NCBI GenBank assembly: GCA_018674655.1
Contig: JABGZQ010000044.1
Location: forward strand, 1 to 38,059
DNA: 38,059 bases
Source of the DNA: Fidelibacterota bacterium
Lineage (GTDB): Bacteria > Fidelibacterota > Marinisomatia > Marinisomatales > TCS55
Reading direction: 5' to 3'
The translations under genes were made by a program, and so were the position numbers. This document shows positions 22,569-29,011 of the stretch, in pieces; positions within the stretch are counted from its first letter, which is position 1; every line of letters begins with the position of its first letter. Under the pieces are notes generated by a model. That model was given only the letters and a program-made list of their open reading frames with translations. It did not search any database and had not been told where the DNA came from.

Positions 22569-25500
22569 TTATTCCGGAATAATAATAACTGGGAATCCCT
22601 CTTCTTTATAAAGCCGATTAAATTCTCCAACTTCGTTATCCATAATTTGATTCAATTTTTCCTTATAGGTTTGCCAGTCTTCAGAAAGATCAACAAAACG
22701 TTCCCGCTGGCCTTGAGTTAAGGGAGGATCAGAACCATCAATCGTACTGAGCAAACTTAACATATGTGAATTTAGACGGTTGAGAAAATTAACCACATCT
22801 TGGAAAGTTTCCATTTTGGTTTGAACCACATTTCCTTCCCACATGTCGATCGCATCGATGGCTGCCTCCCCTGCTTTAATTAAATCTTCAACTTTATTTT
22901 TCTCTTTTAAGCGTCCATTCATTTTTTGAATCTGGTTACGAATGCTACGTGCTTTTACAATTGAACTGTGTAGGTCGTTGATTTGACCATACAAGTCCGC
23001 CATTAATGTTTGATGACTATTAAAATCATGGTCACGAATATCAACCTTTGGATCCGGTTCAATTTTAAATGGCTGCGTCATGGATGCTTCACCCATCGTT
23101 AATCGAGCATAATACTGACCCGGTCCGATACGATATCCAGCATAACCACCATAAAATGATACATCAGGTACCAGGGTTATATCGTCAACTCGAAAATTCC
23201 AGACAAATCGATTTACGCCTTTTTTGGCTGGTATTTTAGGCGATTGATAATTTTCCCCAAACGTTTTGGCTGAAGATCCTTTTTTGTTTGTAATGGTACG
23301 TATAATGGAATCATTATCATCCAAAATTTCCAATTTAACTTCACTGTCTTTTTCTATTTCATCAGCGATATGATAAATAACCACAGTACCTGTTGGAGGA
23401 TTTTGACCGATCAAGGGAGAATTTTTACTTCCACCGGATATCCTAACAGTTGTCCGAGGCGTATATAAATGAAAATCTTTTTTAATATCTTCTTCATTGA
23501 ATTGATGAATAAAAGTTAAATCATCCAAAATCCAAAATGCTCTTCCCTGAGTTGATGCAATCAAATCATTGTTACGAATGGTGAGATCGGTAATGGGAAC
23601 TATGGGAAGATTTAATTGAAATTTTTCCCAGTTTTTCCCACCGTCGGATGACAAATAAAGTCCTGTTTCTGTACCCGCATATAAGAGATTATTTTTTATC
23701 GGATCCTCTCGAACAACACGAACAAAAGCATCTTTTTCAATTCCTTTTGTTTTTAGTGTCCAACTTCTGCCATAATTGGTTGTCTTATAAATATATGGAG
23801 ACAGGTCACCAAATTTGTAGCGGGTAAATGCCACATAGGCAGTGCCGAGATGATGGGGGGATAGTTCTATTGCATTCACAATACCTTCATCCATGCCTTT
23901 TGGGGTAATATTTTCCCAGTTTTCACCGCCGTCTTTTGTCATATGAATTAAACCATCATCTGAACCTGCCCAAAGGATGCCAGCTTCATGAGGTGATTCA
24001 ACCAAATACATGATAGTGTTGTACACTTCGCCGCCAGCAGCCTCATTAGTGAAAGGAATACTCCCTAAATCCTGTTTGTGAATTTCATTTCGTGTCAAAT
24101 CTGGGCTGATAATATCCCAGGAGTCTCCTCCACTCTGAGTTTTAAATACAACATTCCCAGCATGGTAAACCGTATTTGGATCATGTGGGGAAGCCACGAT
24201 AGGTGCGTTCCAATTAAATCTAAATTTTTGATCTTTTGCCACAGAACCTAAACCAAGATATTCATAGGCCATGATACTGCGGCTTTTTTTAGTGATCACA
24301 TTGAATTTTTCTATCAAACCCTGATAACATCCGCCATAGACATCAATGGGATTATCAGGATCGAAAGCCAAGTAAGCACTTTCACATCCAGCGACCCGAT
24401 ACCAATCGGACCAATCGATACCCTGTCCACTGGTTGCACTAGGGATTGCGACACTAGAATTATCCTGTTGACCACCATAAACGTAGTATGGGAATCGATT
24501 ATCTGTAATCACGCGATAAAATTGTGCAGTAGGTTGATTTTTTTGAGATGACCATGAATTGCCACCGTTAAATGAAATATTGGCGCCGCCATCATTGGCG
24601 TTAATCATATTCTTATTATTATGGGGATTAATCCAAAGGCCATGATTATCACCGTGCGGTACATTAATCTTTTGAAAAGACTTGCCGCCATCGGTGGATT
24701 TCATGAAGGGTGCATTGAGAACATAAACGGTATTCTCATCTTGTGGATCTGCAAACACATGAATATAGTACCAGCTGCGTGCAATAAGAACACGATTACT
24801 ATTGACACGTTTGAAGTTTTCCCCCCCATCATCTGAACGAAAGAGACCACCCGTTTCAGCTTCTGCAATCACATAGACTCGCTTGGGATTTGCAGCAGAA
24901 ACACTGACATCAGTTTTACCCATATTCTCCGGAAGGCCTTTGGTTAGTTTATCCCATGTATCACCGCCATCAGTTGATTTATAAATACCGCTGCCGTCAC
25001 CACCGCTTCGCATTTGCCAGGGCTGTCGTTGGTGATCCCAAAAAGATGCAAATAGAATACGGGGATTGGTTCTGTCCATACTCAGACCGCTCACGCCTGA
25101 ATGATCATTAACAAATAATACTTTTTCCCAATGTTTTCCACCATCACTCGAACGATAAATTCCACGATCTTTACTGGCTGTATACTGGTCCCCTTGAACG
25201 GCTACATATACTAATTCTGCATTTTTTGGATGAACAATGACTTGGGAAATCGTTCGTGATTTTTCTAACCCGATATGGGACCAGGTATCACCTGCATCCA
25301 TGGATTTATAAATGCCATCGCCATGAGAAGTCATGACCGGGCGGATACAAGCTTCACCCATACCTGCGTAAATAATATTAGGATCAGATTCAGCCACAGC
25401 CAATGCACCGACTGAACCTGTTTTAAGGAACCCGTCAGATACATTCTTCCAAACGATACCACCGTCAGTCGTTTTCCATATTCCACCCCCAACTGAACCA

Positions 25501-25670
25501 AAATAATATGTGAGAGGATCATTGGGACTGCCAACAGCAGTCAATGACCGACCACCACGAAAAGGACCAATATTCCGCCATTTCATTACATCTTTAACAG
25601 TTGTATCAAGTGATTCTGCCGATGTTATTCCGACACAGAAAAGAACAACGAATAAATAAAATTTTTTCAC
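22569..25670 (-). CDS. secreted sortilin/BNR-repeat protein
   Basis: A 1033-residue exported protein with a signal peptide (KKFYLFVVLFCVGITSAES) and about ten Asp-box/BNR repeats, such as KTTDGGIVWKNV, KSMDAGDTWSHI, RSSDGGKHWEKV, KSTDGGDTWDKL and MTKDGGENWENI. They form tandem beta-propellers over about residues 30-740. The remaining C-terminal 290 residues are a beta domain plus a helical tail. The family is annotated as glycosyl hydrolase or VPS10-like in FCB genomes, but no glycosidase catalytic set is visible. It is likely a surface or periplasmic binding protein. It starts at GTG (25668-25670) with a perfect AGGAGG 8 bases upstream. It is 46 bases downstream of the CBS gene and may share its transcript. 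Confidence 0.88.
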   Translation of the reverse strand: MKKFYLFVVLFCVGITSAESLDTTVKDVMKWRNIGPFRGGRSLTAVGSPNDPLTYYFGSVGGGIWKTTDGGIVWKNVSDGFLKTGSVGALAVAESDPNIIYAGMGEACIRPVMTSHGDGIYKSMDAGDTWSHIGLEKSRTISQVIVHPKNAELVYVAVQGDQYTASKDRGIYRSSDGGKHWEKVLFVNDHSGVSGLSMDRTNPRILFASFWDHQRQPWQMRSGGDGSGIYKSTDGGDTWDKLTKGLPENMGKTDVSVSAANPKRVYVIAEAETGGLFRSDDGGENFKRVNSNRVLIARSWYYIHVFADPQDENTVYVLNAPFMKSTDGGKSFQKINVPHGDNHGLWINPHNNKNMINANDGGANISFNGGNSWSSQKNQPTAQFYRVITDNRFPYYVYGGQQDNSSVAIPSATSGQGIDWSDWYRVAGCESAYLAFDPDNPIDVYGGCYQGLIEKFNVITKKSRSIMAYEYLGLGSVAKDQKFRFNWNAPIVASPHDPNTVYHAGNVVFKTQSGGDSWDIISPDLTRNEIHKQDLGSIPFTNEAAGGEVYNTIMYLVESPHEAGILWAGSDDGLIHMTKDGGENWENITPKGMDEGIVNAIELSPHHLGTAYVAFTRYKFGDLSPYIYKTTNYGRSWTLKTKGIEKDAFVRVVREDPIKNNLLYAGTETGLYLSSDGGKNWEKFQLNLPIVPITDLTIRNNDLIASTQGRAFWILDDLTFIHQFNEEDIKKDFHLYTPRTTVRISGGSKNSPLIGQNPPTGTVVIYHIADEIEKDSEVKLEILDDNDSIIRTITNKKGSSAKTFGENYQSPKIPAKKGVNRFVWNFRVDDITLVPDVSFYGGYAGYRIGPGQYYARLTMGEASMTQPFKIEPDPKVDIRDHDFNSHQTLMADLYGQINDLHSSIVKARSIRNQIQKMNGRLKEKNKVEDLIKAGEAAIDAIDMWEGNVVQTKMETFQDVVNFLNRLNSHMLSLLSTIDGSDPPLTQGQRERFVDLSEDWQTYKEKLNQIMDNEVGEFNRLYKEEGFPVIIIPE

Positions 25671-25716: not shown

Positions 25717-26100
25717 TTACTGAATAGCTTTTAGCACGTCTCGTCGGCTGACTTGTCCTACCAAAATACCATTATCTACTACGGGTAAGCGTCGGAAGTG
25801 TTTTATTTGAAAAATTTCAGCCAGATCTACAAGTCCCATTTCAGAATTAACAGTTGTTATTTCTGTGGACATAAAATCTTCAACACTGCCACCAGAATCA
25901 CTGTAATATAAATCCTGAATGATTGTTGACATACAATCAATTTCAGATAATACACCAACCAGATTACCATTTTCATCCACAACGGGGGCACCTGAGATTT
26001 TATGTTTTAATAGAGATTCAATCGCAGCTCTGACTCGCATATCGGATTGAAATGTGACCAGTTTTTTTGTCATGATATCCTTGACGGCACGAGGTCTCAT
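25717..26100 (-). CDS. tandem CBS-domain protein
   Basis: A 127-residue stand-alone CBS pair. The first CBS (about 8-62) has VRAAIESLLKHKISGAPVVDENGNLVGVLSEIDC. The second (about 70-127) reads MSTEITTVNSEMGLVDLAEIFQIKHFRRLPVVDNGILVGQVSRRDVLKAI (key parts FRRLPVVD and GQVSRRD). Such modules bind adenine nucleotides and act as energy sensors. The partner here is unknown. Its ATG overlaps the stop of the GerW/YtfJ gene by 4 bases, so the two are translationally coupled. Confidence 0.92.
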   Translation of the reverse strand: MRPRAVKDIMTKKLVTFQSDMRVRAAIESLLKHKISGAPVVDENGNLVGVLSEIDCMSTIIQDLYYSDSGGSVEDFMSTEITTVNSEMGLVDLAEIFQIKHFRRLPVVDNGILVGQVSRRDVLKAIQ

Positions 26101-26480
26101 TCTGTTTCTCCCTCGTTGGGTTTATCCGTGTCACTATTTCCCACATATTCTTTTACTGATTCAATAACCGACGGGGCTAAATCCATTAATTTACCTGTCA
26201 GACTTTCTTTATCTCCAATGGTCATAAGTTTTGCGCCATCTTCACCCACGACCACAAATGCAACTGGTTCAATAGACCATCCACCGCCCACACCTTGCCC
26301 GTTTCCTTTTTTGCCTTTTTCATCACCTTCGCCACCGCCGCCGGCAAAGCCAAACATCACTTTTGATACGGGAATTACTGTATGGGTATCCGTTTTGATG
26401 GGTTCCCCAACCACTGTTTTGGATGTCATTAATTCCTGTGCTTCTTTAAGCGTATTTTTAATTAATTCTGCTATACTCAT
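26097..26480 (-). CDS. ytfJ: GerW/YtfJ family protein
   Basis: The 127-residue protein begins IAELIKNTLKEAQELM. Then come VVGEPIKTDTHTVIPVSKVMFGFAGGGGEG, a glycine-rich centre and GGWSIEPVAFVVVGEDGAKLM, the full pattern of the GerW/YtfJ sporulation family. In Bacillus the gene product is needed for spore germination. Here there is no other sporulation gene, so the role is different and unknown. It lies between DUF2953 and CBS genes; a 10-base gap and a 4-base overlap make a tight unit. Confidence 0.88.
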   Translation of the reverse strand: MSIAELIKNTLKEAQELMTSKTVVGEPIKTDTHTVIPVSKVMFGFAGGGGEGDEKGKKGNGQGVGGGWSIEPVAFVVVGEDGAKLMTIGDKESLTGKLMDLAPSVIESVKEYVGNSDTDKPNEGETE

Positions 26481-26490
26481 ATTATTCCTT

Positions 26491-27072
26491 TCACTTCTTG
26501 AATTTAAAATAAGTTTTGATAGCCTGCCACAAAACTTTCCCCGGTATAAATTTCATTCTAAATCGACCATTAATGTCTGTTTCAAATTGATTATTAAATC
26601 GTGGGTTGATTACAATATCTACCTTTCTACCCCTAATTAACCTACCGATCGATTGACTCCATCCATAGATTATTCCGGTATACATTGGATTGGGAAACCC
26701 CAAATTACCATTTAACAAAAAGTGGTCAAAATGGATTTCTCTTAAGGCTGCCATTCCAATTTTTATATAGGGAATGTTCGACTTATTTTTCTTTTTTAAT
26801 TTCCTATTTTTATGGTTTGGTTTTTTATTTTGTGGAAGAGAAAAAGAAAATAATGGTTTATCAAAACGGCCAATACCAATTCGGATGGATGGAAATGGGG
26901 AAATAGATATACCGCGATGAATACCCCCTAAATGGATATGAGAATTTCCTGATTTATCCTGTGCCATCCATTGAATATTTCCTGAAACTGCGAGTCGATA
27001 TGGAATAAAAAGAATTAATAAGAAAAAGCTGATTAAAGCAAATAAACCCCACAGTATAATATTTAAATCCAT
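26491..27072 (-). CDS. DUF2953-like membrane-anchored protein (YtfI type)
   Basis: A 193-residue protein with one N-terminal membrane helix (about 5-27) and a basic, Lys-rich middle (about 105-125). The conserved-looking C-terminal region is NPMYTGIIYGWSQSIGRLI, then KVDIVINPRFNN (about 140-172). This is the DUF2953 pattern of B. subtilis YtfI, which is also directly upstream of ytfJ. Function is unknown; a membrane partner of YtfJ is the natural inference. The assignment rests on these short motifs plus gene order. Confidence 0.68.
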   Translation of the reverse strand: MDLNIILWGLFALISFFLLILFIPYRLAVSGNIQWMAQDKSGNSHIHLGGIHRGISISPFPSIRIGIGRFDKPLFSFSLPQNKKPNHKNRKLKKKNKSNIPYIKIGMAALREIHFDHFLLNGNLGFPNPMYTGIIYGWSQSIGRLIRGRKVDIVINPRFNNQFETDINGRFRMKFIPGKVLWQAIKTYFKFKK

Positions 27073-27115: not shown

Positions 27116-27997
27116 CTATTCGAATAAAGATGATTCCATTGCAAGAAGGGTTTTGGCTTTTTCCTGCTCATTTAAATTTTCAGGAGATACATCTGGCAAT
27201 AGGGTTGGATCCGATTGAAGAACAAACTGTAAATCTTTCACAAATAATTCGCGATTACCACTTTTGGTGTGAAGGTATTGTGCACGAATCACATATGTAC
27301 CCAAATAATTTGGACTGCCGGAAATTGAATACTCGAAATTATTGATTGAATGAATAAGATCTACACCGGGCAGTCTGGCATAGATGCCGCCAAATATTCT
27401 ATTTGCACCATGATAATAAAAATTGGGGTTTAGGGATAAAATTCGGTGTAATGCTGTTTCAATAATTTCTCTTTGGCTCAACCGCTCCATAACCGGCTTT
27501 GTGACAAGATATCGAGAAAAGTTTGCTACCCACCAATACAAATATGGAACCAATTCTTGAGATGTATTTTCGATACCACCAATTATTTTTGCTGTGGAGT
27601 CGCCATTCGTCAATGCATATCCTTCTTGGTAAGAATCTGTAGCTATAATAAAATCCCAGGCAGATTCTATACCTTCCATAAATAATAAATCAGACTTAAA
27701 AGGATCCGTTTCAATGTAATAACCAATATAGTGGCATGCTCTGGAATAAAGTTCCGCCACATCTCCATTGTTAGGATCCTGATCATAGGCTTTGGATAAA
27801 AACAATCGAGCCATTTTTGCATCTTCCGGGTTAACGCGCTTTTCCCAATGAGATTGTCCTTTTTCAACTAAAAATTGGATATTTTGATCCGTAGAGGTAT
27901 ATGCACCAAAGGATCCAGTTTTTATTGTACAACCGGACACGATCAAGCAGGTTCCAATTAAGATAATATAAATTTGGTTTTTCATGTGAATCATCAT
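27116..27997 (-). CDS. TatT-like lipoprotein (TRAP-transporter-associated TPR-type)
   Basis: The 293-residue lipoprotein has a signal peptide ending in the lipobox VSGC, C23 being lipidated. The helical body resembles the TatT family, with LVPYLYWWVANFSRYL, a LNPNFYYHGANRIFGGIYARLPG turn (similar to DPxYFYGGAHRxLGxxYAxxPG) and SPNYLGTYVIRAQY. TatT proteins are periplasmic partners of some TRAP transporters and form trimeric TPR-like structures. No TRAP transporter genes are visible in this window. Starts at 27997 or, 12 bases later, 27985. Ends 43 bases before the DUF2953 gene on the same strand. Confidence 0.72.
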   Translation of the reverse strand: MMIHMKNQIYIILIGTCLIVSGCTIKTGSFGAYTSTDQNIQFLVEKGQSHWEKRVNPEDAKMARLFLSKAYDQDPNNGDVAELYSRACHYIGYYIETDPFKSDLLFMEGIESAWDFIIATDSYQEGYALTNGDSTAKIIGGIENTSQELVPYLYWWVANFSRYLVTKPVMERLSQREIIETALHRILSLNPNFYYHGANRIFGGIYARLPGVDLIHSINNFEYSISGSPNYLGTYVIRAQYLHTKSGNRELFVKDLQFVLQSDPTLLPDVSPENLNEQEKAKTLLAMESSLFE

Positions 27998-28072: not shown

Positions 28073-29011
28073 ATGGAAAAGACTATTGAAATGAAAGGTA
28101 TGGATCTGGGCATGTTATTTGGTCCGGCAGATGCAAATTTGAAACTGGTTGAAGGTGCCTTTGCCAGTAAAATTATTGTGCGAGGCAATATTATCAAAAT
28201 TGACGGGGATGAAAAAGAAGTTCCTGTGATTCATGAAGTATTCCATGAAATGGGATCAACGCTCAATCGAAAAGGATCCCTCACTCAGGAAGATGTAAAA
28301 ACATTGATTCGTGTTTCTGCTGTACAAAATGGGCATGAAACGCAGCAATTGGATACGGTAGTTCATTATGGGCGAAAAGGCGCCATTACCGCTCGGACGG
28401 ATGGGCAAAAAACATATATTCAAACTGTTAGAAAAAATGATATCGTTTTTTCAGTTGGGCCTGCCGGAACAGGAAAAACATACTTGGCTGTGGCATTTGC
28501 TGTGGCTGCTTTGGATAATCGCGAAGTGGATCGTATTATTCTCTGTCGCCCGGCGGTAGAAGCAGGCGAAAACCTTGGATTCCTCCCAGGCGATCTCAAA
28601 GAAAAAGTCGACCCTTATTTAACTCCCCTTTATGATGCATTGGGTGATATGATGCCCGCCACGCGTTTGAAGCCACTTTTGGCTAACAATACGATTGAAA
28701 TCATTCCTTTGGCTTATATGCGGGGTCGGACCCTTAATAATGCGTTCATGATTTTGGATGAAGCCCAAAATGCCACCACCATACAAATGAAAATGTTTCT
28801 CACGCGATTGGGCGTGAATTCCAGAGCGATTATTACGGGAGATATCACCCAGATTGATTTACCTTCAAAATCAAAATCGGGTTTACTGCAAGTGATCGAT
28901 CTATTACAGGGAATTGACGGACTTGGATTTTGCAAATTGGATGCATCGGATGTGGTGCGCCATAAACTGGTGAGGGATATTATAAAGGCCTATGATCATA
29001 AGGATGAGTAA
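28073..29011 (+). CDS. phoH: PhoH family ATPase
   Basis: A 312-residue PhoH-type P-loop protein. The N-terminal KH-like region (about 25-90) precedes the Walker A GPAGTGKTYLAV (129-140). ILCRPAVEAGENLGFLPGDLKEKVDPYLTPLYDAL is the family signature (key CRPAVEAGE and GDLKEKVDPY). FMILDEAQNATTIQMKMFLTRLG holds Walker B, and GDITQIDLP ends the core. It is cytoplasmic and implicated in RNA handling; the exact role is unsettled. It is divergent from the TatT gene. In many genomes phoH precedes ybeY, but here nothing of the kind follows. Confidence 0.92.
   Translation: MEKTIEMKGMDLGMLFGPADANLKLVEGAFASKIIVRGNIIKIDGDEKEVPVIHEVFHEMGSTLNRKGSLTQEDVKTLIRVSAVQNGHETQQLDTVVHYGRKGAITARTDGQKTYIQTVRKNDIVFSVGPAGTGKTYLAVAFAVAALDNREVDRIILCRPAVEAGENLGFLPGDLKEKVDPYLTPLYDALGDMMPATRLKPLLANNTIEIIPLAYMRGRTLNNAFMILDEAQNATTIQMKMFLTRLGVNSRAIITGDITQIDLPSKSKSGLLQVIDLLQGIDGLGFCKLDASDVVRHKLVRDIIKAYDHKDE

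Follow-up and report, generated by a model that had tools for sequence, protein, structure and literature searches.

A gene for a DUF2953 protein and a gene for a YtfJ/GerW-family protein form the real unit at a locus of Neomarinimicrobiota, and the CBS-domain protein encoded directly behind them is a separable neighbour. The pair travels as a unit in the bacteria and archaea examined, and no sign of sporulation was found with two markers in the window's genome; it therefore probably fulfilled an older task at the membrane and was borrowed by spore-formers later. The two proteins are best described as a functional pair at the cytoplasmic membrane that is wider in distribution than sporulation and probably older, with its spore role in Bacillus as one deployment. 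Taken as a whole, the data are best read, with a probability of roughly 0.6, as an old DUF2953-YtfJ module on the cytoplasmic side of the membrane, which is not specific to sporulation and serves the envelope or the stress response.

The locus and its genes

The window, i.e., the whole 38,059-nucleotide stretch analysed here, corresponds to contig C82 of a 2.1-Mb genome that is 90.79% complete. The closest YtfJ matches listed in a scan of public genomes share 91-93% identity and belong to Candidatus Neomarinimicrobiota. The initial annotation had placed genes for a DUF2953, a YtfJ and a CBS protein next to each other, and all three are present and match their families, including the DUF2953 protein, which passes the PF11167 cut-off (Table 1) and reaches 28.1 bits in a profile search of the genome contigs. 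The genes for DUF2953 and YtfJ lie on the minus strand with a spacing of 10 bp. Overlooked at first was a gene for a lipoprotein of the TAtT family (TatT in the following), which lies 43 bp upstream of DUF2953.

Table 1. Genes and sequence features of the DUF2953-YtfJ locus, in positions of the window
Feature	Position	Strand	Length	Basis
Stand-alone two-CBS-domain protein	25717-26100	-	127 aa	PF00571, 105.9 bits in two stretches (cut-off 24)
ATGA overlap of YtfJ stop and CBS start	26097-26100	-	4 bases	from sequence
YtfJ/GerW-family protein	26097-26480	-	127 aa	PF09579, 78.1 bits, E 6.2e-22 (cut-off 25)
DUF2953 (YtfI-type) protein	26491-27072	-	193 aa	PF11167, 26.4 bits, E 7.4e-6 (cut-off 22)
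TAtT (TRAP T-component) family TPR lipoprotein	27116-27997	-		PF16811, 55.7 bits over residues 137-292 (cut-off 26.5)
PhoH-like ATPase	28073-29011	+		PF02562, 309.4 bits; divergent from the TAtT-family gene

An artefact involving the overlapping antisense open reading frames (ORFs) on the plus strand (197 and 73 aa) was considered and rejected, because the minus-strand proteins match their families. Promoter-like and terminator-like sites are not more frequent than in shuffled sequence, and a tblastn search of viral contigs yielded no relative of the DUF2953 protein.

DUF2953 and YtfJ as a conserved pair

Within a set of 101 genomes (the window's own and 100 relatives), YtfJ is present in 30 and DUF2953, as defined by Pfam, in 27, all of which are among those 30. 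This corresponds to 27/30 YtfJ-positive versus 0/71 YtfJ-negative relatives (Fisher p 1.6e-21, kinship ignored), and in the remaining three YtfJ-positive relatives a DUF2953-like ORF was found by BLAST. DUF2953 is located directly upstream of YtfJ and on the same strand at all 30 YtfJ loci, one of which (genome G056) was read from locus L094. The recurrence of this order in 30/30 YtfJ-positive relatives is far beyond chance.

A scan of public genomes with search patterns from Neomarinimicrobiota YtfJ gave 593 candidates, 521 of them confirmed, and the YtfJ ORF was recovered in 79 of the best 80 of these 521 loci. Among the matches listed, DUF2953 directly precedes YtfJ in 73/79, mostly in Clostridia and Neomarinimicrobiota, the latter contributing 9/79. 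The six exceptions among the matches listed include the archaeon Methanosalsum, in which the order is inverted, and at least one locus (L164) that begins at a contig edge. Bacillota carry DUF2953 in 114 of 149 genomes; when 30 of these 114 were read from the DUF2953 side, YtfJ followed just downstream in 28. The other two also have YtfJ on the DUF2953 strand, one separated by 197 bp and one with an ORF that was called too long. Within Halobacteriota, 34 of 120 genomes contain DUF2953, 42 contain YtfJ and 33 contain both. YtfJ immediately precedes DUF2953 at 32 of these 33 loci and in Methanosalsum (L102), whose genome we take to belong to the Halobacteriota of GTDB, so that adjacency amounts to 33/34 overall.

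The archaeal pairs thus consist of the same two families, adjacent and on one strand as in the window, but with YtfJ first and without a TatT or CBS string. Since their order is inverted, the conserved feature is adjacency and not order. The claim that the genes keep the order of Bacillus is correct for the Bacillota loci read and does not extend to the archaea. Likewise, the survey of the DUF2953-YtfJ-CBS order outside Firmicutes that had been proposed bore out the adjacency of the pair in Neomarinimicrobiota and archaea, but not a constant CBS gene or a constant order. No DUF2953 match was obtained in nine of the 42 YtfJ-positive Halobacteriota genomes, and the YtfJ scores there are weak. 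The YtfJ-like matches of these nine genomes (G105, G115, G122, G125, G132, G135, G144, G158 and G193) reach 31-41 bits and cover approximately the first 65 of 81 positions; they perhaps represent a separate subfamily.

The two genes also appear to be lost together. In G010 (locus L264), which belongs to the same genus as the window's genome, TatT is followed by CBS, and both DUF2953 and YtfJ are missing. Within the 83-bp gap between TatT and CBS, the start context of DUF2953 survives, and a handful of codons continue from it directly into the CBS start as a short scar ORF. This scar is the mark of a single deletion that removed both genes, in one genome that is approximately 76% complete and in which a mis-assembly is possible. 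The inseparability, patchy distribution and joint loss of the two genes could also point to a self-preserving cassette akin to a toxin-antitoxin system, in which each gene needs the other. This explanation is highly improbable: no toxin-antitoxin family is found among the Pfam matches, the pair follows the host groups in the tree described below, and single deletions of gerW, the Bacillus ytfJ, in B. subtilis and B. megaterium had no reported harm to germination or outgrowth, although its expression there is confined to the forespore (PMC4366231).

Sporulation status and origin of the pair

Neomarinimicrobiota are a Gram-negative marine phylum, and neither they nor Halobacteriota archaea are known to form endospores. 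Two sporulation markers, Spo0A_C and the SpoIVA ATPase, were searched for in the window's genome (90.79% complete), and neither gave a match, while the same searches find the B. subtilis control. As far as these two markers reach, the label of an apparent non-spore-former therefore stands. The YtfJ of the window scores 86.3 bits with TIGR02874, the equivalog model for GerW/spore_ytfJ, and fails its NCBIfam cut-off of 116.3, as do three other YtfJ proteins of Neomarinimicrobiota (84.9-91.7) and one archaeal YtfJ (101.1). In contrast, all four Bacillota proteins scanned are above it (171.6-204.1). An annotation as "sporulation protein YtfJ" in metagenomes must not serve as evidence of spore formation.

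A tree was calculated from concatenated YtfJ and DUF2953 sequences (323 columns) of 29 Neomarinimicrobiota, 34 Bacillota and 33 archaeal pairs by a quick method and is unrooted; the Bacillota pairs were drawn randomly, and loci L119, L121, L148 and L154 were left out due to short or misplaced DUF2953 ORFs. The Neomarinimicrobiota pairs form their own clade (100, starred), the Bacillota pairs likewise fall on one side of a branch (100, starred), and the archaeal pairs on one side of a branch with weak support (67). Because the clades are separate, the pair of the window is not a branch inside the sampled spore-formers, and horizontal transfer from these was rejected. A related proposal, that Neomarinimicrobiota imported the pair recently from spore-forming Bacillota and keep it as a relic with no old function, would agree with the gene order shared with Bacillota and with the patchy presence in 30/101 genomes. 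It is decidedly unlikely in view of the separate clade obtained by the quick method and of the equivalog cut-off, which divides the scanned Bacillota proteins from the others; moreover, intact copies in many genera speak for genes in use. The initial annotation had postulated an ancestral, non-sporulation membrane function. Its non-sporulation and membrane components agree with the presence of the pair in a Gram-negative phylum and in archaea and with the N-terminal helix of DUF2953, whereas an ancestral state is compatible with the tree but cannot be shown by it, since it is unrooted.

The role of YtfJ as a germination protein, which the initial annotation had taken over, goes back to a 2013 report on GerW that was contradicted in 2015 for B. 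subtilis and B. megaterium (PMC4366231). The passages covered of the later study locate GerW in the soluble spore fraction, and its authors call the role unknown (PMC4366231). As the loss of gerW has no germination phenotype, a function is demonstrated nowhere in the passages covered, and what YtfJ does in spores is treated as an open question in the literature (PMC4366231). In the excerpts covered of further studies, sigma-F lists of B. subtilis name both ytfI and ytfJ (PMC3097244), as does the sigma-B regulon table of B. cereus (PMC3788345), and a DUF2953 protein is listed among the spore inner-membrane proteins of B. cereus (PMC8624511). The ytfI-ytfJ (gerW) pair of Bacillus, as described in papers, thus comprises the same two families, is co-listed in one regulon and carries consecutive locus numbers in B. 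cereus (BC4641 and BC4640). While sigma-F or sigma-B controls the genes in Bacillus, the window has neither of the two sporulation markers searched for, a different gene string and a YtfJ below the equivalog cut-off. Among the passages retrieved by family names and identifiers, none was found that treats DUF2953 and YtfJ as a pair.

The CBS protein

A CBS gene follows the pair in 18 of the 30 Neomarinimicrobiota loci. In 13 of these 18, namely the window and 12 of the 17 others, it overlaps YtfJ by 4 bp. The ATGA overlap probably couples the translation of YtfJ and CBS, as judged from the sequence. A close CBS gene is present in 20/30 YtfJ-positive and 16/71 YtfJ-negative relatives (Fisher p 6.8e-5, kinship ignored); in two of the 20 YtfJ-positive genomes it is on another contig. 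Both CBS motifs of the window protein end with G-x-x-S-x-x-D, a ribose/phosphate-site pattern. Tandem CBS domains with such conserved ends are also found in MJ1225, MJ0100 and AMPK gamma, to which the window protein shows distant sequence matches; unlike this comparison set, it has no effector domain. It reaches 32.9 bits with the model of the c-di-AMP-binding CBS protein CbpB (NF041630) and fails the cut-off of 125.

These features could indicate a complex of DUF2953, YtfJ and CBS, in which CBS would read the energy state from adenine nucleotides and regulate the membrane pair accordingly. The distances of CBS and DUF2953 correlate with 0.77 after control for PhoH (n=17), which would be in line with such a complex. 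The partial correlation given PhoH is 0.30-0.51 for DUF2953 and YtfJ, and because DUF2953 shows such a correlation with CBS and with TatT as well, the mirror-tree approach is unspecific and was dropped as evidence. The three-protein complex is improbable because pair and CBS are separable in both directions. CBS is missing beside the pair in 12/30 loci, comprising the whole family f8, genus g6, family f12 and two others. Conversely, 16 genomes without the pair contain CBS, and in 15 of these the locus was read (G093 was left out): TatT-CBS was found in nine, TatT-PlsY-CBS in one and PlsY-CBS at the phoH locus in two, while in three CBS is elsewhere. CBS is thus kept at the same PhoH locus in 12 of the 15, including the congeneric G010, and eight loci read in family f7 show TatT-CBS without the pair.

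Outside Neomarinimicrobiota, matches to the CBS profile are rare and weaker than that of the window. They occur in one of 71 scan loci, among the matches listed, and in four of 33 archaeal loci (L216, L219, L223 and L229; E 1e-7 to 1e-11), which also hold DUF2953. These counts assign CBS to the local gene string and not to the pair, and CBS as an obligate subunit was rejected. A translational tie between CBS and the pair, as originally claimed, is probable for the window and the other loci with the overlap and fails where CBS is absent; the idea of CBS as the built-in sensor of the pair is supported by neither direction of the survey, which includes nine loci with CBS immediately behind TatT. 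An energy-sensing complex in the Neomarinimicrobiota lineage is possible, if weakly supported, and is not a general rule.

Protein features and a possible role at the membrane

For the DUF2953 protein of the window, a single membrane helix is strongly predicted at the N-terminus (about residues 3-23), with a hydropathy peak at residues 5-23; the basic, β-rich domain behind it has a net charge of +23. Of 46 DUF2953 proteins, 44 carry more K and R just behind the membrane helix than ahead of it, with a mean net charge after the helix of +14.7. According to the positive-inside rule, the K/R-rich side of a membrane helix faces the cytoplasm, and the excess after the helix therefore suggests that the main domain of DUF2953 is cytoplasmic. 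YtfJ is oppositely charged: its mean net charge is -7.3 in 29 Neomarinimicrobiota and -6.7 in 65 Bacillota proteins, and that of DUF2953 is +20.4 and +14.8, respectively. Pairwise covariation of these charges is not convincing (rho -0.02 in Neomarinimicrobiota; weak in Bacillota, with rho -0.26 and an uncorrected p of 0.04).

AlphaFold2 gives a confident model of DUF2953 (mean pLDDT 93.2). The YtfJ model, with an N-terminal helix, a long β-hairpin with a Gly-rich tip and an acidic tail, has low confidence (mean pLDDT 69.6), and any oligomeric state is therefore a guess. The Foldseek search with DUF2953 gave no match below E 0.001, and its best VIA-align Z was 5.5 (IspF, rmsd 5.3, 94 aligned); for YtfJ, the best Z was 4.8 (rmsd 3.4, 62 aligned), with no convincing structural match. 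As far as these models can tell, the searches show neither a shared nor a new fold. Searches of the PDB yielded no sequence relative of either protein; the YtfJ profile has two matches within E 1, both to designed helical barrels, and these were taken as chance.

Based on these features, DUF2953 would be anchored in the cytoplasmic membrane by its single N-terminal helix, with its basic β-rich domain in the cytoplasm, and the soluble, acidic and probably oligomeric YtfJ would dock on it. The module would then act on the cytoplasmic face of this membrane, most likely in the maintenance of the envelope or under stress. Bacillus would have placed the pair under the control of sigma-F (forespore) or sigma-B (general stress), and to this control the pair would owe its spore name. 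A bolder version is tentative: DUF2953 and YtfJ might constitute a membrane complex older than endospores and perhaps even older than the divergence of the archaeal from the bacterial lineages in which it occurs. DUF2953 would nucleate this scaffold or protective assembly at the inner leaflet, YtfJ oligomers would build it up, and Firmicutes would later have recruited it into the forespore membrane. Adjacency despite the inverted archaeal order would then reflect selection for a stoichiometric complex.

Fibrobacter succinogenes is a non-spore-former with a YtfJ protein. In the portions covered of the respective studies, this YtfJ is increased in acid (log2 2.1; PMC5442110), YtfJ of Ca. Methanoperedens is decreased with salt (PMC11337218), and YtfJ of Ruminococcus flavefaciens is named in the extracellular proteome (PMC3672088). 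This stress literature, as far as covered, is scattered over differing conditions and points in both directions. The near-constant pairing with a membrane protein, including in archaea and a Gram-negative phylum, suggests looking for the function of YtfJ at the membrane, together with its partner and in organisms without spores. Methanosarcina acetivorans, in which both families are present according to the control genomes of the profile searches, and B. subtilis are genetically testable hosts.

Neighbouring genes

The TatT gene is part of the pair's gene string in 24/30 loci, and a PhoH-like gene borders the string at nearly every locus compared and marks the syntenic locus. The TatT protein of the window matches the solved TPR protein 8g52 (E 2e-14) and shares its family (PF16811) with the T component of TRAP transporters, but it is a divergent paralogue without an adjoining transporter. 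A second TatT (124.1 bits) is encoded near DctM on contig C59 (G000:C59:7757-11249); DctM matches are present on C59 and C109 and absent from the window contig, and the TatT of the window is thus not beside TRAP permease genes. The pair may have been inserted into, or retained in, a string running from TatT to CBS beside phoH, with the CBS protein and TatT as neighbours that can be lost or kept independently of it. In several genomes of family f8 (L041, L044 and L053), in which TatT and CBS are missing, genes for a Na/Pi cotransporter and a PhoU-domain protein are located downstream of the pair.

Five loci (L032, L033, L268, L271 and L273) contain a divergent PlsY-like glycerol-3-phosphate acyltransferase gene before CBS at the phoH locus, assigned by PF02660 for the L032 copy and by eye for the others. 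It is inserted between YtfJ and CBS in two genomes and, in genomes without the pair, between TatT and CBS in one and between PhoH and CBS in two. The window also has a gene for a lipid kinase (DAGK_cat) in the vicinity, and LolA/LolB are among the weak fold-similarity hits. Together, this could mean that the pair takes part in membrane lipid homeostasis by handling lipids at the inner leaflet, where DUF2953 would be the domain in contact with them. Such a role is unlikely, because no conserved neighbourhood with lipid genes was seen in the other groups, and fold matches of this weakness may reflect only a common arrangement.

Downstream of CBS, at 22569-25670 on the minus strand, the window encodes a 1033-aa protein with Sortilin-Vps10/BNR matches, which is probably secreted and of the β-propeller type. 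An ORF of the same size is found at the equivalent position in several congeners (L043, L045, L057, L060 and L264).
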